This document shows positions 3,784 through 10,207 of a DNA stretch of 64,000 bases, in pieces; position 1 is the stretch's first letter, and every line of letters begins with the position of its first letter. Location: NCBI RefSeq assembly GCF_032027425.1, contig NZ_JAVSJA010000001.1:744001-808000 (forward strand). Direction: 5' to 3'. The notes beneath the pieces are model-generated. The model saw only the letters and a program-made list of their open reading frames with translations, was not told the DNA's origin and did no database searches. This DNA is from Microcystis wesenbergii NRERC-220 (lineage in GTDB: Bacteria; Cyanobacteriota; Cyanobacteriia; Cyanobacteriales; Microcystaceae). The position numbers and the translations under genes are program-made.

Positions 3784-4446
3784 TCATAGATCAGAAAGGC
3801 CAAAGGTTTTAATCACTCGATCGCTACCTTCGATAACCACCGTCGCTCGATAATTATCGCCGATTGCCGCTGTCCATAATTGCCATTCCCCCGCCACATT
3901 GTCTAATTTTAAGGGATTGAGGCCCACTTCCACTCGTTCGAGTCCCCCGCTAATTCCCGTTCCCAGTGCCTTTAAATAAGCCTCTTTTGCCGTCCATAAC
4001 TGAAAAAATAGCTTTTCCTTCTCTGCGGACTTTTCAACAAGCTCGTGTTCCCTAGCACAAAAAAACCTTTTTGTCAAGCTATTTAAATCTTTCATCTGGC
4101 GCATTTTCTCTAAATCTACCCCGATGCGAGCGGTTAAAGTCAAGCCACAGATGGCCATATCTTCGGAATGGGAGAGATTAAACTGTAATTGGTAGTTAAT
4201 ACTCGGTTTTCCCCGTTCACTGTAGATAAACTCGATTTTTTCGGGACTTATCGCCAAATATGACCCTAAAATCTCGCGTAAACACCCCCTCGCCACCAAA
4301 AAACGCCGCTTGTGTTCGGGAAAATGGTAACGATTAGCTCTAATTATTTCATCTTCCGAGAGCAAAGAAGCCAGTTTTTCTAGTCTATCCCCAGAGGGAT
4401 CAAGACTGATAAAATAGAGATGAACCTCATCGGTAGATATAAACAT
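3784..4446 (-). CDS. 4'-phosphopantetheinyl transferase (Sfp/HetI type)
   Basis: Transfers the phosphopantetheine arm of CoA to a serine on acyl or peptidyl carrier proteins. The Sfp signatures are present: GVDLEKM (Mg-binding Asp) and WTAKEAYLKALGTG (WxxKEA). I chose the ATG at 4446 (220 residues); an in-frame GTG at 4461 would add five residues. The size and paired signatures suit the broad-specificity Sfp group, which in cyanobacteria is usually the single enzyme (HetI-like) serving fatty-acid, polyketide and nonribosomal peptide carriers. No carrier protein or NRPS gene is nearby. Confidence 0.85.
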   Translation of the reverse strand: MFISTDEVHLYFISLDPSGDRLEKLASLLSEDEIIRANRYHFPEHKRRFLVARGCLREILGSYLAISPEKIEFIYSERGKPSINYQLQFNLSHSEDMAICGLTLTARIGVDLEKMRQMKDLNSLTKRFFCAREHELVEKSAEKEKLFFQLWTAKEAYLKALGTGISGGLERVEVGLNPLKLDNVAGEWQLWTAAIGDNYRATVVIEGSDRVIKTFGLSDL

Positions 4447-4556
4447 TAAACTCAGAAGCACTCAAATAATTAATTATCGGTAAATTTTACCGTAAAATGA
4501 GAATTGCCGACTCAAGAATTTATCCACCTTCTAACTCTTGACTTTGCAGCACACCT

Positions 4557-5498
4557 ATGAACTTTTTTCATACTGAAGACCACCTCCAACAGTTCGGTAC
4601 AGATATTTTAGAAACAACTTGGCGAGAATTTCCCCAATTAGCTCAAGAACAAATTGCCCTAACTTGGATAGTATATGATCCTCCCGTTATCGTCAACACG
4701 GGGGGAGCAATTTCTCACGAAGAATTCTGGAAATATTCCCCCCGCGGATTTAGCTATCGCGGACAAGAAAGAACCTATCCCGCTAGTTTAGTGAAATTAT
4801 TTTATCTAGTAGCAATTCATGAGTGGTTAGAAGGGGGAATGATTCCCGAAAACACCGAATTAAATCGCGCCATTCGTGACATGATTGTTGACTCTAGTAA
4901 TGATGCTACCAGTTTAGTTGTAGATCTGGTCACGGGAACCACTAGCGGTCCAGAAATTGCCGCCAGTCCCTTTGAAACTTGGAAGCAACAACGCAACATA
5001 GTTAATCGTTATTTTCAATCCCTAAATTGGCCAGAATTAGCGACAATTAACGTTAATCAAAAAACTTGGTCTGATGGTCCCTATGGACGTGAACGCGCTT
5101 TTTTAGGGGAATTAATGGAGAATCGCAATATGTTAACTAGCAATGCAGTGGCGCGTTTAATTCATACTATTATCGGGGGGATTGCGGTTTCTTCCCAACG
5201 TTCCCAGATGATGATGTCTTTACTAAAACGAAGTCTTAATCCTGCTGATTGGACAAGTCAAGGAGATGAGACACAAATTTTAGGATTTTTGGGACAAGGA
5301 TTACCAGAAAGTAGTCAAATTTGGTCAAAAGCTGGTTGGACAAGTCAAGTGCGTCACGATGCAGCCTATATTGAAATTCCCCATCATACTCCCTATCTCT
5401 TGGTGGTATTTACCGAGGGAAAAGATAACAGTCAAAACCGCTCAATTTTACCTTTTATTTCCCAGAAAGTAGCCGAGAAAATCATGCAGTTTAATTAA
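4557..5498 (+). CDS. Serine hydrolase of class A beta-lactamase fold
   Basis: A 313-residue protein of the beta-lactamase/penicillin-binding fold. The nucleophile motif SxxK is S77-L-V-K80 and the second motif S-x-N is S113-S-N115. The third motif reads KAG rather than the canonical KTG (in WSKAGWTSQ). No signal peptide is visible at the N-terminus, so a periplasmic beta-lactamase is not supported; many cyanobacteria carry such a protein of unknown substrate. It is divergent from the phosphopantetheinyl transferase gene, with about 110 bp between starts. Confidence 0.75.
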   Translation: MNFFHTEDHLQQFGTDILETTWREFPQLAQEQIALTWIVYDPPVIVNTGGAISHEEFWKYSPRGFSYRGQERTYPASLVKLFYLVAIHEWLEGGMIPENTELNRAIRDMIVDSSNDATSLVVDLVTGTTSGPEIAASPFETWKQQRNIVNRYFQSLNWPELATINVNQKTWSDGPYGRERAFLGELMENRNMLTSNAVARLIHTIIGGIAVSSQRSQMMMSLLKRSLNPADWTSQGDETQILGFLGQGLPESSQIWSKAGWTSQVRHDAAYIEIPHHTPYLLVVFTEGKDNSQNRSILPFISQKVAEKIMQFN

Positions 5499-5500
5499 TT

Positions 5501-5610
5501 GAAGCTGTAAGTAGGATGGTTTTCTCTGCCATTGCCAAAAGTGCTAGATAAACATCCTACTGCCATAAATCCGTAAATTTACTGATGTGCATCTCAATAT
5601 ACAGCTTTTC
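5501..5610. repeat. Small inverted-repeat element in intergenic DNA
   Basis: GAAGCTGTA at the left and TACAGCTTTTC at the right are imperfect inverted ends, and inside them GTAGGATGGTTT (5511) pairs with AAACATCCTAC (ending 5560). It could be a short MITE relic or a structured 3' region of the beta-lactamase-like gene. No second copy was recognised in the window. Confidence 0.3.
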
Positions 5611-5744
5611 TCGGATAGATGGGGTTCTTTATTGCAGCTGAAATACTTGATTAAGTAAGGATTTAGTCTGTGCTTCACCTTGACGGGAAAGGCCGTCATC
5701 ATTTAAACTAACAATAAGTTGTTCTTAAGTATTTCCTCAAATGT

Positions 5745-7094
5745 GTGACTTTCAACCCTCACCATTGTCATAACGAAAGGGAAGTGGAGAGTAAATTAAT
5801 TGTTCAGTATTTACTCCCAAAACTAGGCTACAATGCCGAACATTGGTATCAACAAGTTAGCTTCGGTAAAGTACGTTTAGATTTCCTTGTTTCCGCTCAA
5901 AAACCTATCAACAAAAAGCAGTTTTTATCCTCTCACTGTCTAATTGTCGAGGCTAAAAACCCCAGAGAAAAGCTCATCAATCATCGTCACCGCTTAGGTT
6001 ATTATCTCAACTACTTTAAAGTGCAGTGGGGATTATTAACCAACGGTGATGAGATTCAACTTTATCAAAGAAAACCCGATAAAATTTATTTAGTTTTTAG
6101 ATGTTCTGGGTTAGAAATTGCCGCTCACTTAGAACAGTTAAAATCTCTGATTGGCTACGAAACTTTATTCCTGGGTATTCCACCGCTCAATTCTCCAACA
6201 ATCAACAACAAAAATCCCATGAAAACCATCGCAATTTATCATCATAAAGGTGGTGTTGGTAAAACCACCGTCGCTACCAATCTAGCGGCAGCTTTGAGTA
6301 AAAAAGGCAAGCGAGTATTATTGATTGATATTGATGCTCAAGCTAATAGTACTTTTGCCGTTGGTTTAATTAAGTTTCAATTCGATGATGACGATGATTT
6401 AAAAGATAAAAATGTTTTTCATTTGCTAGATAACAGTAACCGCATTTTTATTGAGAATATCGTCAGAAAGTCTCAAGGATTCAATCATCCAGAAATTGAT
6501 GTTATTCCCTCTCACATATCTTTAATTGCTAACCAAGCTAAAATTAAAGATAATGCGGCGGTATTTGCTAGATTGGCCAGAAAATTAGAGAAAGTAAAGG
6601 ATCAATACGATATTGTAATTATTGATGCACCTCCCGCACTTGATTTATATGCACGCATTGCTTTAATTGCAGCTGATTATCTGATAATTCCTTCTGATCT
6701 TAAACCATTTTCTAATCAAGGATTAGATAGCGTTAAAAACTTTGTTCAAGAGGAAATCAATGAAAGTCGTGGAGATTTGGGTAAACCAACCTTACAAATT
6801 TTAGGCGTTTTACCTTCCAAAATTTCCACCCATGCTCAATACTTAAGATATAATTTTCCCAAACAAAAACAAGTGATTCCAGACAAATATAATTTACCCT
6901 TGATGGAATCGACTATCTCGGAAAGAATGCCTTTATCTCGCTGTATAAATCAATACGTTACCGTGGGAGATTTAGAAATTCCTGCTCCCCAATCTATAAT
7001 GGATTATGCTGAACATAAAGGCGATGCGGGAGTATCAGCAGCAGAATTTGAAGCCTTAGCACTAGAAGTTTTAGCTAAAATAGGAGTTAAATAA
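5745..7094 (+). CDS. PD-(D/E)XK nuclease-like domain fused to ParA ATPase
   Basis: A 449-residue fusion. Residues 1 to about 140 resemble the N-terminal nuclease domain of type I restriction HsdR proteins, with an upstream acidic stretch (EREVESK), D46 in RLDFLV and the E69-A-K71 of VEAK, the usual D...ExK catalytic arrangement. From M159 it is a ParA/MinD-like P-loop ATPase: deviant Walker A KGGVGKTT (168-175), the IDIDAQ switch (194-199) and DIVIIDAPPA. The GTG at 5745 is the only usable start; an in-frame stop lies at 5715. M159 could once have been an independent ParA start. Its TAA directly abuts the ATG of a ParB-like gene. Family knowledge supports DNA segregation or positioning; a nuclease-armed ParA role is inference. 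Confidence 0.8.
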   Translation: MTFNPHHCHNEREVESKLIVQYLLPKLGYNAEHWYQQVSFGKVRLDFLVSAQKPINKKQFLSSHCLIVEAKNPREKLINHRHRLGYYLNYFKVQWGLLTNGDEIQLYQRKPDKIYLVFRCSGLEIAAHLEQLKSLIGYETLFLGIPPLNSPTINNKNPMKTIAIYHHKGGVGKTTVATNLAAALSKKGKRVLLIDIDAQANSTFAVGLIKFQFDDDDDLKDKNVFHLLDNSNRIFIENIVRKSQGFNHPEIDVIPSHISLIANQAKIKDNAAVFARLARKLEKVKDQYDIVIIDAPPALDLYARIALIAADYLIIPSDLKPFSNQGLDSVKNFVQEEINESRGDLGKPTLQILGVLPSKISTHAQYLRYNFPKQKQVIPDKYNLPLMESTISERMPLSRCINQYVTVGDLEIPAPQSIMDYAEHKGDAGVSAAEFEALALEVLAKIGVK

Positions 7095-7784
7095 ATGTGT
7101 AAATTTTTACGAGTCGATATTACTGATATTAATCCTTCTCTTCCCAGAGAAACCTTCTCTGAAACTGAATTGGAAAATTTAGCCAATCTTATTATTGAAA
7201 TGGGTGGACTTATTCGCCCTGCTATTCTCAAAAAAGCTGATAATAAAAAAGTTGATGAACGTTATAATATTATCAGTGGAGATTTAGAATATTATGCTTC
7301 TGTTATCGCCAATCAGAAAGTTCCTGACCTCGAGATGATTAACGCTTTTGTAGTTGATAAAGAAGCGGAGAATATCGCTTTACAGCAAATACAGTTATTA
7401 TCTCCTTCTCCTGGGTTAATTACCAGGCCCCAAAAAATAGATAATCCTCTAGAATTGAGGATGAGTAATCTTGAAAAACGATTAGAAACCCAGTTACAAG
7501 CAATCCGAGAGGAGTACCAAAAAGAAATCAAAAGACTGGAAGAAAAAATTATTATTTATCCTCCTCCTCCTCCTCCTTCTAAGTCGATTTTAGAGCTTTT
7601 GAATACCTGTGATGCTAATCAACTTAAAAAAGGGGGAATTCCACCTGCATCTGTTAATGACTTTCTGAAAAAACGTTCAGAAAAGCCCTTTGATTCTTTG
7701 GAAGATGTCCTAAATCGCCCAGTGTCAGGAGTTAAAGAGAAAAGATTAATTAAACTTATCGATTATTTGCTGACTTCTAATTGA
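7095..7784 (+). CDS. ParB-like protein with coiled coil and HhH-like tail
   Basis: A 229-residue protein, in tandem with the ParA fusion at zero spacing. Residues 37-75 (GGLIRP...YNIISGDLEYY) resemble the ParB/Srx N-terminal fold, whose usual GERR motif is here SGDLEY, so the canonical CTP-binding arginines are not obvious. Residues 118-153 are heptad-like and charged (coiled coil), followed by a run of six prolines (156-161), and the end (PASVNDFLKKRSEKPF...) looks like a helix-hairpin-helix DNA-binding module. It lacks the normal ParB HTH, so it would bind DNA differently. Its role as partner of the upstream ATPase is inferred from adjacency. Confidence 0.7.
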   Translation: MCKFLRVDITDINPSLPRETFSETELENLANLIIEMGGLIRPAILKKADNKKVDERYNIISGDLEYYASVIANQKVPDLEMINAFVVDKEAENIALQQIQLLSPSPGLITRPQKIDNPLELRMSNLEKRLETQLQAIREEYQKEIKRLEEKIIIYPPPPPPSKSILELLNTCDANQLKKGGIPPASVNDFLKKRSEKPFDSLEDVLNRPVSGVKEKRLIKLIDYLLTSN

Positions 7785-7914
7785 TTTTTGTGGGTGTGTT
7801 GAGCTACTTTAACACACCCTACCGATGGATGTTATAATAATGGAAGATCAGTAAAAAAGCCTGATCCGATAGCGGGCAAAGATTAACTAGAAGACGGGTG
7901 AAAAGAGAAAACTT

Positions 7915-8607
7915 ATGACAACTACCCCAGTAATTGCTGCTTCTTTAACAATTCCTCCCCTAGAAAACGGCGATAAATTAACTCGATGGGAATTTGAACG
8001 ACGTTATCAAGGGATGCCCCATCTCAAAAAAGCGGAATTAATTGAAGGAATTGTTTATATGGCATCTCCCCTCAGATTTGAAAGTCACGCCGAGCCTCAT
8101 GCTAATATTATCGGATGGTTAGCTCTCTATAAAGCGGCGACCCCCGGTGTTAGATTGGGTGATAATGCCACCGTGAGATTAGATATTGATAACGAACCCC
8201 AACCGGATGCCCTATTAAGAATTGACAAGGGAGGACAATCAACAATTAGTCAAGATGACTATGTAGAAGGCGCGCCGGAATTAATTGTCGAAATTGCAGC
8301 TTCTAGTGCTTCCTACGATGTTCATCAAAAATTAAATGTTTACCGTCGCAATCAAGTCCAAGAATATCTAGTCTGGCGGTTTTATGAACAAGAAATTGAT
8401 TGGTTTCGGCTACAGGCAGGAGAATATATTAAACTAGAACCCGATAGTGAGGGCATAATGCGCTCCCAAATCTTCCCCGGTTTATGGCTGGATAAAAACG
8501 CTTTATTAATGGGCGACTTAGGAAAAGTTTTATTGATTTTGCAGCGGGGGTTAGAAACAGCAGAACATCGAGATTTTGTCAAGAAATTAACTGCCAATTA
8601 CAGCTAG
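7915..8607 (+). CDS. Uma2/DUF820 family endonuclease-like protein
   Basis: A 230-residue member of the Uma2 (DUF820) family, greatly expanded in cyanobacteria, with a PD-(D/E)XK-like fold. The core is visible as QPDALLRID (catalytic Asp region) followed by PELIVEIAASSASYD, where the E of VEIA is the second acidic residue, and the downstream HQKLNVYRRNQVQEYLVW is typical. Biological role is not established, though many copies sit near mobile DNA. A second, unrelated-looking copy is at 46599-47183. Confidence 0.85.
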   Translation: MTTTPVIAASLTIPPLENGDKLTRWEFERRYQGMPHLKKAELIEGIVYMASPLRFESHAEPHANIIGWLALYKAATPGVRLGDNATVRLDIDNEPQPDALLRIDKGGQSTISQDDYVEGAPELIVEIAASSASYDVHQKLNVYRRNQVQEYLVWRFYEQEIDWFRLQAGEYIKLEPDSEGIMRSQIFPGLWLDKNALLMGDLGKVLLILQRGLETAEHRDFVKKLTANYS

Positions 8608-8782
8608 ATTGTAAAATTAGACAATTATTCTTGATCCACTGTCCTAGAATTATAGAAAGAGTATTTTTGACTTGAATTTGTTCTTAACTGTACCCCACAT
8701 TTCGACAAGCTCAATGTAAAATAATCTCGCCCCTGATAATCTTCACTTCGACAAGCTCAGTGACCACTCATCACCTTACTTT

Positions 8783-10207
8783 ATGTCAAATCTAATCCTT
8801 TTCTGGCATCGTCGCGATTTACGTCTCTCGGATAATATTGGACTGAGTAAAGCTAGGGAGCGCAGTCCGAAAATTATCGGGGTTTTCTGCCTCGATCCTG
8901 CTATTTTAGAAGGGGATGATATCGCCCCAGCTAGAGTTGCCTATCTCCTCGGTTGTCTAGAGGAATTAGAAAAAAATTATCGCCAAAAAGGTAGTCAATT
9001 ACTGATTATTCGCGGCAACCCCAGTCAAGCACTCGTCAACTTAGCCAGCAATTTATCGGCAAAAGCAGTTTTTTTTAACCTCGATATCGAACCCTACGCG
9101 CGTCAACGGGATCAACAGGTAATCGCCGCTTTACAAACAAAAGGAATTGAAGTAGAAACCTTCTGGGATCAACTTCTCCACGCTCCAGGGCAAGTCCTCA
9201 CCCTCTCAAAAAGTCCCTACACCGTATATACTCCTTTTTGGAAAAATTGGAGCCAATTAGCCAAAGCCAGCCCCAAAACCCTAGAAAACCTGCAAGGATT
9301 AGACGAAAATGAGGGGGAGAAACTCACAGAAACTATTAACTTACCAACCCTAGAAAATTTAGGTTTTACTTGGCAAAACCCCTTACCCCTCACCCCCGGA
9401 GAAAAGGCCGCCCATAGCAGATTAGAAGAATTTTGTCAAGGGGTTATTAACAATTATCAAGAAGATCGTAACTTCCCCGCTTTCGATGGGACCTCGCGCT
9501 TGAGTGCTGCTTTAAAATTTGGGGCGATTGGCATTCGCACAATTTGGACGGCAACCCTAGAGTTATTAGAAAATTGCCGCGCCCAGGAAGCAAAAGATAG
9601 TATTATCACTTGGCAGCAAGAGTTAGCTTGGCGGGAATTTTACCAGCATTGTCTCTATTTTTTCCCAGAATTGGCGGTCGGTGCTTATAGAAAAGAATTT
9701 CGTCATTTTCCTTGGCAGGATAACGAAGAACATTTTCAAGCTTGGTGCCAGGGAAAAACCGGCTATGCGATCGTTGACGCGGCCATGCGACAATTAAATG
9801 AAACGGGATGGATGCACAATCGTTGTCGCATGATCGTGGCGAGTTTTTTAACCAAAGATTTAATTATTAACTGGCAAAAAGGCGAAAAATACTTCATGCA
9901 GAAACTTTTTGATGGCGATTTAGCCGCTAATAATGGTGGTTGGCAGTGGAGTGCCTCTAGTGGCATGGATCCGAAACCTTTAAGAATTTTTAATCCCGCT
10001 AGTCAGACACAAAAATTCGATCCGGAAGGGGAATATATTCGTCAGTGGTTGCCGGAATTAGCTTCCGTAGATACGGAATATCTAGTAACCGGGAAAATCC
10101 CCCGTTTAGAAAGACATCGTTGTGGTTATCCTGAGCCAATTGTCGATCATAATCAACAACAAAAAGAATTCAAACGACTCTATAGTAATCAGAAGCCAAA
10201 ACAATAA
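8783..10207 (+). CDS. phrA: Deoxyribodipyrimidine photolyase
   Basis: A 474-residue class I cryptochrome/photolyase. The N-terminal alpha/beta domain starts with [15 protein letters not shown] and would hold the antenna chromophore. The FAD-binding helical domain carries the signature stretches [20 protein letters not shown] and [13 protein letters not shown]. It repairs UV-induced cyclobutane pyrimidine dimers using blue light. The close match to cyanobacterial CPD photolyases favours that over a cryptochrome. It ends only 6 bp from the convergent RND gene, with no clear terminator between them. Confidence 0.92.

Follow-up and report, generated by a model that had tools for sequence, protein, structure and literature searches.

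A constant, predicted HsdR-type nuclease domain on a cyanobacterial ParA that is exchanged together with its ParB-fold partner

In the 64,000-nucleotide window analysed here, positions 744001-808000 of a 4.68-Mb contig of Microcystis wesenbergii NRERC-220 (a genome of two contigs), a gene pair encodes a ParA ATPase with a predicted N-terminal nuclease domain of the HsdR type and, directly behind it, a partner with a ParB-like fold. Comparison of this locus among related genomes revealed that the nuclease domain stays constant while ParA and the ParB-fold domain of the partner are swapped as a pair without change of locus. As read from sequence, the pair consists of a conserved predicted nuclease domain on an intact-looking ParA, a ParB-fold partner and a matched exchange behind the constant nuclease, and we consider the chances about evenly balanced that it is a chromosomal two-gene DNA-surveillance nuclease whose specificity would lie in the Par pair and which would act with no visible modification enzyme. 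The features of the pair, in window coordinates, are as follows (aa, amino acids; pLDDT, predicted local distance difference test score; HhH, helix-hairpin-helix).

5745..7094, + strand: nuclease-ParA fusion gene, GTG start, 449 aa
7095..7784, + strand: ParB-fold partner gene, ATG start at 7095, 229 aa
5745..6164, + strand: predicted HsdR-type PD-(D/E)XK domain, aa 1-140
6165..6218, + strand: variable, low-confidence linker, aa 141-158, pLDDT <50 at 147-155
6219..7091, + strand: ParA ATPase domain, aa 159-449 (AAA_31; Foldseek ParA/Soj/McdA)
6420..6824, + strand: allelic block V1, ParA aa 226-360
7095..7364, + strand: allelic block V2, partner aa 1-90 (ParB/Srx fold)
7278..7289, + strand: Box II position of the partner, G62-D-L-E65 in place of GxxR
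7446..7553, + strand: predicted long helix (coiled coil), partner aa 118-153
7560..7577, + strand: run of six prolines, its length varying among strains
7587..7781, + strand: helical HhH-like tail, swapped independently of V1 and V2

Across the 11 Microcystis loci (loci and genomes are cited by L and G numbers), nuclease windows of 15 codons retain 87-100% DNA identity to L001, and in five of the loci identity to L001 is 53-91% in ParA codons 226-360 and 47-78% in partner codons 1-90. These two blocks are separated by a conserved C-terminal stretch of ParA and are linked in 11/11 loci, as alleles A (L001-L006), B (L007, L008, L010 and L011) and C (L009), with the divergence of allele C continuing into the coil. 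The tail alleles are independent, since L005, L009 and L010 share one tail across A, B and C. The ratio of nonsynonymous to synonymous differences (pN/pS) in the Microcystis loci is 0.14 for the nuclease domain, 0.32 for the ParA block (0.05 within allele A), 0.44 for the ParB-fold block and 0.61 for the coil (0.86 within allele A).

A comparison of 13 Nostoc and Desmonostoc loci that have a common upstream neighbour gave nuclease domains that share 91-98% identity (80% in one group), ParA parts that are 54-99% identical and fall into seven groups, and ParB-fold domains that are 38-98% identical and fall into six, the ParA and ParB-fold groupings disagreeing at L113 only. The tail of L125 is common to L105 and L113 (89-95%), and its Par pair differs. 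DNA profiles of three swapped Nostoc pairs are alike over the nuclease and the near flanks and fall to 49-70% identity in the greater part of the cassette (higher at its edges), the exchanged segment beginning approximately at the linker; the downstream flank of L131/L113 is gapped and then recovers, and the far upstream sequences of L105/L102 are unrelated. For L079/L120 the cassette is 97-99% identical versus 56-97% for the flanks, a pattern as after recent transfer.

Co-variation of the two exchanged domains is also evident over a broader sample of 63 loci, in which the correlation of distances between ParA and the ParB fold (r 0.84) exceeds that between nuclease and ParB fold (0.53) or between nuclease and ParA (0.36). 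The bootstrap interval of the difference between 0.84 and 0.53 is 0.17-0.48 and 1000 Mantel permutations reach 0.18 at most. Within the nuclease domain, partial correlations are approximately zero by construction. At the level of single residues, the presence of I or L at ParA position 196 predicts whether partner position 8 is acidic or other in 57 of the 61 classed loci, two loci falling outside both classes (I/acidic 24, I/other 1, L/acidic 3, L/other 33; Fisher p 1.1e-12, a value that ignores shared descent). A second pair carried by these strains (type 2, described below) served as a control; it keeps 80-100% identity over both genes, with one dip, in 6 of the 9 loci compared. Plain rate differences were rejected as the cause of the allelic blocks because flanks and nuclease are alike on either side and the pattern is not shared by the type 2 pair.

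Whether the constant domain is a nuclease was assessed across its family. The HSDR_N_2 profile (PF13588, cut-off 25 bits) gave 22.6 bits with the whole protein, 24.9 with residues 1-159 and 25.0 with residues 1-153, and the window's predicted nuclease domain would be borderline if judged on its own profile score alone. Such weak single-protein domain matches turn firm across the family: at E<=0.01, HSDR_N_2 is found in 14/14 N-terminal domains (N-domains) and HSDR_N in 13/14. The active-site residues D46 (codon 5880-5882), E69 (5949-5951) and K71 (5955-5957) are invariant in 62/62 aligned homologues, and in an AlphaFold2 model built for the fusion from 62 aligned rows (mean pLDDT 88.8) the N-domain has the predicted order alpha-beta-beta-beta-alpha-beta (helix 11-26, strands 34-40, 43-50 and 65-70, helix 77-91, strand 95-99), with D46 in strand 2 and E69 at the end of strand 3. 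Single-sequence and profile searches of PDB sequences with the N-domain returned four matches, none a nuclease, and the 50 Foldseek matches shown for the fusion model were all of the ParA/MinD type, the nuclease half having no structural match there. Because direct support from the PDB is missing, the assignment rests on the Pfam profiles, the invariant D..ExK and the predicted topology. The full invariance of the catalytic residues, together with purifying selection, argues for a working nuclease.

It is highly improbable, in our judgement, that the domain is a dead nuclease retained only for DNA binding or autoregulation. It does occupy the place of the DNA-binding domain in other long ParAs, and the N-terminal helix-turn-helix (HTH) of type Ia ParA proteins has a DNA-binding and autoregulatory role; against this stand the three invariant residues and the D..ExK that can also be made out by eye in the fusions of types 2 and 3.

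The ParA part matches AAA_31 (E 4.4e-52), and its Walker A loop KGGVGKTT, which contains the signature lysine (residues 168-175, at 6246-6269), is invariant in 62/62 homologues. Foldseek searches with the fusion returned ParA, Soj and McdA structures, including McdA 6nop. A ResIII match on the P-loop reached 15.2 bits versus a cut-off of 22.5, and only ParA-type ATPase families exceed their cut-off.

The partner matches ParB_N over the cut-off (E 9.5e-8), and 58/58 partners match it at E<=0.01. Its AlphaFold2 model (58 rows, mean pLDDT 83.1) finds ParB-CDP 6sdk, ParB 7bm8 and Noc 7ol9 as the best Foldseek matches, with sulfiredoxins lower and PadC 6ryk also present, and consists beyond this fold of a helix at 118-153, a low-confidence gap and a helical tail. 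The HhH match is weak in the window partner (E 0.04); at E<=0.01 the 58 partner tails match HHH_6 (15), HHH_3 (4), Rho_N (4) and SAP (4), families that may overlap, and no HTH was found among the 25 listed of the 38 families matched by these partners. According to the accessible part of Kaljevic et al. 2025 (PMC12704722), Box II reads GxxR in nucleotide binders and its R-to-A change abolishes binding; at the position of this arginine 56 of the 58 partners have E, one A, one T and none R. With GxxE in this place, nucleotide binding by the partner would be expected to be absent or unusual. The strict ParA-binding motif LG-R/K-GL is present in 0/70 partners and the relaxed pattern [LI]G[RK]xL in 3/70 (L080, L095 and L127).

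Much of this architecture had been anticipated in the original prediction, which read this locus as a nuclease-ParA fusion with an abutting partner. The ORF (open reading frame) coordinates and Pfam profiles confirm that arrangement: zero bases lie between the fusion ORF, ending at 7094, and the partner ORF, starting at 7095, and the same zero gap and GTG fusion start are found in all 11 Microcystis genomes. The nuclease module it placed at residues 1-140 agrees with the HsdR N-terminal family matches, its D...ExK residues are kept in the homologues, and the perfect KGGVGKTT loop of the ParA ATPase is borne out by the sequence and by AAA_31. Its ParB/Srx-like fold holds across the partner family and in the matches to ParB, Noc and sulfiredoxin structures, and the proposed replacement of the HTH by a coiled coil, a proline run and an HhH-like tail is supported by the model, the six prolines and the tail profiles, the window's own HhH match being the weak element.

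The earlier suggestion that this is not an ordinary partition system was likewise upheld, given the missing LG-R/K-GL and GxxR motifs and the lack of a parS-like site. A search for parS allowing up to 2 mismatches gave 2 forward and 1 reverse matches versus 5 and 1 in the control, a result for the canonical sequence that leaves another centromere possible. Ordinary plasmid partition was rejected because the pair is chromosomal, no parS-like site is present and the defining ParB motifs are absent. Origin-linked chromosome partition was rejected as well, since the pair lies within 5% of the genome from dnaN in only 1/8 genomes (G002, 51 kb) and is approximately 1.26 Mb from it in its own genome, with dnaN taken as the origin proxy and circularity assumed.

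A broader role in chromosome or nucleoid maintenance deserves separate consideration, in which the pair, in the absence of a canonical ParB, would assist in the arrangement or resolution of polyploid chromosomes, its nuclease trimming DNA that is linked or damaged. Canonical ParB over the cut-off occurs in 0/11 same-genus genomes, and the only ParB_N matches of the pair's own genome are this partner and one 93-aa ORF, which we take from its length to be a sulfiredoxin. In Microcystis the position is conserved and selection is purifying, and cyanobacteria are described as being without classical ParABS in the accessible part of a review (PMC7766704). We nonetheless find this role unlikely, as the distribution is patchy (39/292 genomes, below), proximity to dnaN is confined to one of the 8 genomes, cassette exchange is unexpected for a housekeeping function, and some genomes, such as G026, G037 and G055, have the pair together with canonical ParB, which is over the cut-off in 24/59 genomes.

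The distribution of the pair was first defined in a close set of 59 genomes (its own and 58 relatives), in which the intact fusion, hereafter type 1, is present in 11/11 same-genus genomes and 12 others, with the partner adjoining it in 11/11 Microcystis loci and in 12/12 intact type 1 loci outside the genus. The remaining copies are a type 3 form in two genomes (L029 and L030), a broken copy with an annotated adjacent partner ORF (L017) and one at a contig end (L028). One genus has a ParA without the nuclease domain (L015, L024 and L025), the partner being kept at L024 and L025. A wider scan with one genome per species yielded 223 relatives of the N-domain, of which 80 were kept and analysed as loci; these are cyanobacterial except for Desulfonema magnum (L124), and complete chromosomes occur among them. 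The fusion is intact at 74/80 loci by script and at L112, which the script missed, the rest being frame-broken (L075, L088 and L091), at a contig end (L106) or a nuclease domain without a matching ParA (L135). A partner ORF lies at most 100 bases from 70 of the 74 intact fusions; of the four exceptions, L116 and L126 reach the contig end, the ORF of L122 is displaced and L093 has none. The breaks at L017, L075, L088 and L091 fall within the nuclease or ParA part, and the partner is detectable in the last three. In the phylum as a whole the N-domain was found in 39/292 cyanobacterial genomes and 23/115 genera, six of the 39 being Microcystis, and 36/39 lie in open frames of at least 449 aa, a count that covers the N-domain with the ParA fusion not confirmed singly. 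Occurrence is patchy even within one genus, in which it is present in G028 and G033 and absent from G021 and G140.

The chromosomal location claimed in the original prediction is supported by the 4.68-Mb contig, by the complete chromosomes among the 80 loci and by the plasmid collection, in which only 4/72,556 records match the N-domain, all weakly (Phaeobacter, 30% identity). No N-domain match was found in the phage collection, and none of 39 pattern matches in viral contigs was confirmed. The scarcity and weakness of plasmid matches, and flanks without iteron-like direct repeats, speak against a domesticated or selfish partition module that has been armed, stabilises its own locus in an addiction-like manner and competes with related modules. 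To this explanation, which has in its favour that the ParA part matches plasmid/phage-type partition families and that the linked alleles resemble incompatibility groups, we assign little probability.

Two further versions of the architecture were recognized. The type 2 pair of the same genome (C1 4483403-4484734; L143 2724-4735, - strand) has an overlapping partner; its fusion has a readable D..ExK N-domain (HSDR_N_2 E 0.001), and its partner combines a weak ParB_N match (0.0071) with a Rho_N match (2.5e-6) in a Rho_N/SAP tail. This pair is full length in 9/11 same-genus genomes, one with an internal TAA, absent from G004 and G005, nearly full length in 12/48 other genomes and partial in G014. 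Type 3, an HSDR_N-ParA fusion found in G054 and G057 and at loci L147 378-2777 and L148 2427-4836, has a partner in whose Box II GADW can be read by eye. Downstream of Microcoleus-type loci (e.g., L086 7789-8886) a type-3-like partner also occurs on its own, lacking its ParA. A putative nuclease-ParA accompanied by a ParB-fold partner with a predicted DNA-binding tail is thus represented by at least three diverged forms.

Turning to the surroundings of the pair, the gene upstream (window 4557-5498) belongs to a beta-lactamase family (PF13354, 1.5e-17 in the orthologue L063 3813-4751), and short inverted repeats that resemble miniature inverted-repeat transposable elements in appearance flank the pair at 5510-5561 and 7791-7823, the second found by eye. 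An Rfam scan of 4400-9000 gave no match. The 65 loci have 122 nearest neighbours, of which 119 were scanned; among the 25 listed of their 75 families the counts are 14 for fatty-acid desaturase, 13 for family 2 glycosyltransferase and 11 for a second ParA, with numerous families seen once. The neighbours are thus for the most part of housekeeping type or such a ParA. HsdM and HsdS were not seen among these listed families or among the putative identities of the ORFs adjoining the pair. At a threshold of 1e-10 the 119 neighbours matched 60 PADLOC families, 25 of them listed, and rescanning nine neighbours identified AriAB (L140), DpdF (L073) and a PD-T4-6-type kinase (L133), with weaker matches to BrxHI (3), PDC-S03 (2) and SspH (1). 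The proximity to defence genes raised by the original prediction holds to the extent that some defence families occur among the neighbours and does not extend to enrichment; as the scan had no background control, neither enrichment nor depletion is claimed, and membership of a defence island was rejected. Overall the original prediction is supported in part: its nuclease domain, chromosomal setting and departure from ParABS stand, its DNA-patrolling or plasmid-restricting device stays a suggestion, and the constant nuclease with an exchanged ParA-partner cassette, the main pattern here, was not among its points.

A plain second ParA lies at most 5 kb from 16 loci (e.g., L087 2986-3867), upstream on the opposite strand where viewed, and its nearest solved relatives are Soj/ParA, with no McdA among 13 matches. 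DEDD exonuclease, AAA_16 ATPase and PDDEXK_1 genes recur at L099 7166-8650, L080 7544-9613, L110 7745-8671 and L148 304-2358, the exonuclease of L099 having a Cas4-like end, and possibly constitute a separate DNA-processing unit. The AAA_16 ATPase occurs in 13/59 genomes of the close set; within these 13, a type 1 pair is found in G058 alone and a type 3 pair in G054 alone, so the recurring genes do not belong to the unit itself. On the same ground we rejected a larger operon that includes the ATPase and the exonuclease: the genes are close at several loci, and the ATPase accompanies a type 1 pair in one genome. This low co-occurrence also counts against a non-immune alternative in which ParA would drive the positioning of a nuclease for repair or recombination at lesions or on incoming transforming DNA. 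The HhH and SAP-type tails are in keeping with this alternative, as are the genes for a DEDD exonuclease and for Cas4-like/PDDEXK proteins close to several loci, but it leaves the swaps unexplained, and we rate it as quite improbable.

The exchange pattern fits surveillance of foreign DNA best, and it is from this pattern that we infer that the specificity of the Par pair has been under selection: repeated exchange would have been favoured for the new specificities it brings, in the simplest case against plasmids or other foreign DNA. Further points in favour of surveillance are the adjacency of the two genes, the chromosomal and patchy occurrence, the predicted DNA-binding tails and the diverged second version within the same genome. 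By analogy with ParA biology, ATP-bound ParA may dimerise on DNA and so pair two nuclease domains, while the cognate partner would hold DNA via its HhH- or SAP-type tail. The ParB-fold domain of the partner would then engage ParA and license or release cutting, as an activator or a release factor, and the Par pair would set which DNA, or which DNA state, is the target. Several observations weigh against surveillance by such a nuclease. Enrichment near defence genes was not seen in the neighbour scan, which lacked a background control, and the Microcystis neighbours look housekeeping around a locus kept in 11/11 genomes, unlike a typical defence island. The ParA relatives L015, L024 and L025, all of one genus, lack the nuclease, which is broken or alone at L017, L075, L088, L091 and L135. 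The type 2 control, with no block in 6/9 loci, supports locus-specific exchange only, and co-variation of ParA and partner would also fit any cognate ParA-ParB pair, including one in a positioning system. Finally, no PADLOC family spans the fusion, and the one match obtained falls on the ParA part only.

Comparison with known systems places each part of the pair in familiar company. A ParA ATPase beside a ParB-fold protein, co-evolving as a pair, recalls ParABS, which differs in that here a nuclease is joined to ParA, the partner has no recognised HTH, LG-R/K-GL or GxxR, and neither a parS-like site nor linkage to the origin is seen. With HsdR of type I restriction the fusion shares an HSDR_N-type nuclease domain, ParA here replacing the SF2 translocase. 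In restriction systems, HsdS specificity subunits are exchanged behind a constant nuclease, and the exchange of specificity proposed for this pair resembles it. McdA, of the McdA/McdB carboxysome positioning system, is a cyanobacterial ParA with structural similarity (6nop) but without a nuclease. The following likenesses draw on the accessible parts of the sources cited. PadC of Myxococcus is a ParB-fold protein that serves a ParA and not a centromere (structural match 6ryk; PMC5703909, PMC12704722), but it binds CTP and bactofilin (PMC12704722) and has no nuclease. GmrSD type IV restriction couples a ParB/Srx-fold domain to a nuclease, which is however of the HNH type, mostly in a single fused chain and without ParA (PMC4619093); neither HNH nor DUF262 is among the Pfam matches of the pair. 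The ParB-CTPase-fold fusions of Kaljevic et al. 2025 (PMC12704722) likewise join the ParB fold to further domains, only the DUF3850 fusion lying consistently beside parA, and "helix-hairpin" has 0 occurrences in the accessible main text.

PADLOC 2.0.0 contains no family that covers the nuclease-ParA, and the partner matched 0 families; the sole match, PDC-M28B, covers ParA residues 155-257 and also falls on the plain neighbouring ParA. The accessible parts of the open-licence papers searched, including PMC12704722, PMC4619093, PMC7766704, PMC12839542 and PMC10853773, describe no nuclease-ParA fusion. The parts are known folds, and a constant nuclease with an exchangeable Par pair was not found in the literature searched. 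We tentatively raise the possibility, which we would sooner expect to fail than to hold, that types 1, 2 and 3 are branches of one class of new restriction-like immunity, in which a constant HsdR-type nuclease is steered by exchangeable, matched ParA-ParB-type pairs. Under such an immune function, a partition-type machine, in place of sequence recognition combined with methylation, would choose the target, for example by engaging the partition complexes of incoming plasmids or their DNA state.

ParA-type ATPases move plasmids, chromosomes and carboxysomes; if the surveillance reading is correct, they would also steer nucleases, and specificity would be transferable by swapping the cognate ParA-ParB-type pair. 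This would provide a concrete system in cyanobacteria, a group described as being without classical ParABS (PMC7766704, accessible part). The natural matched and mismatched pairs would be material for learning how ParA recognises its partner, and, more speculatively, the system could bear on the poor transformability of some cyanobacteria.

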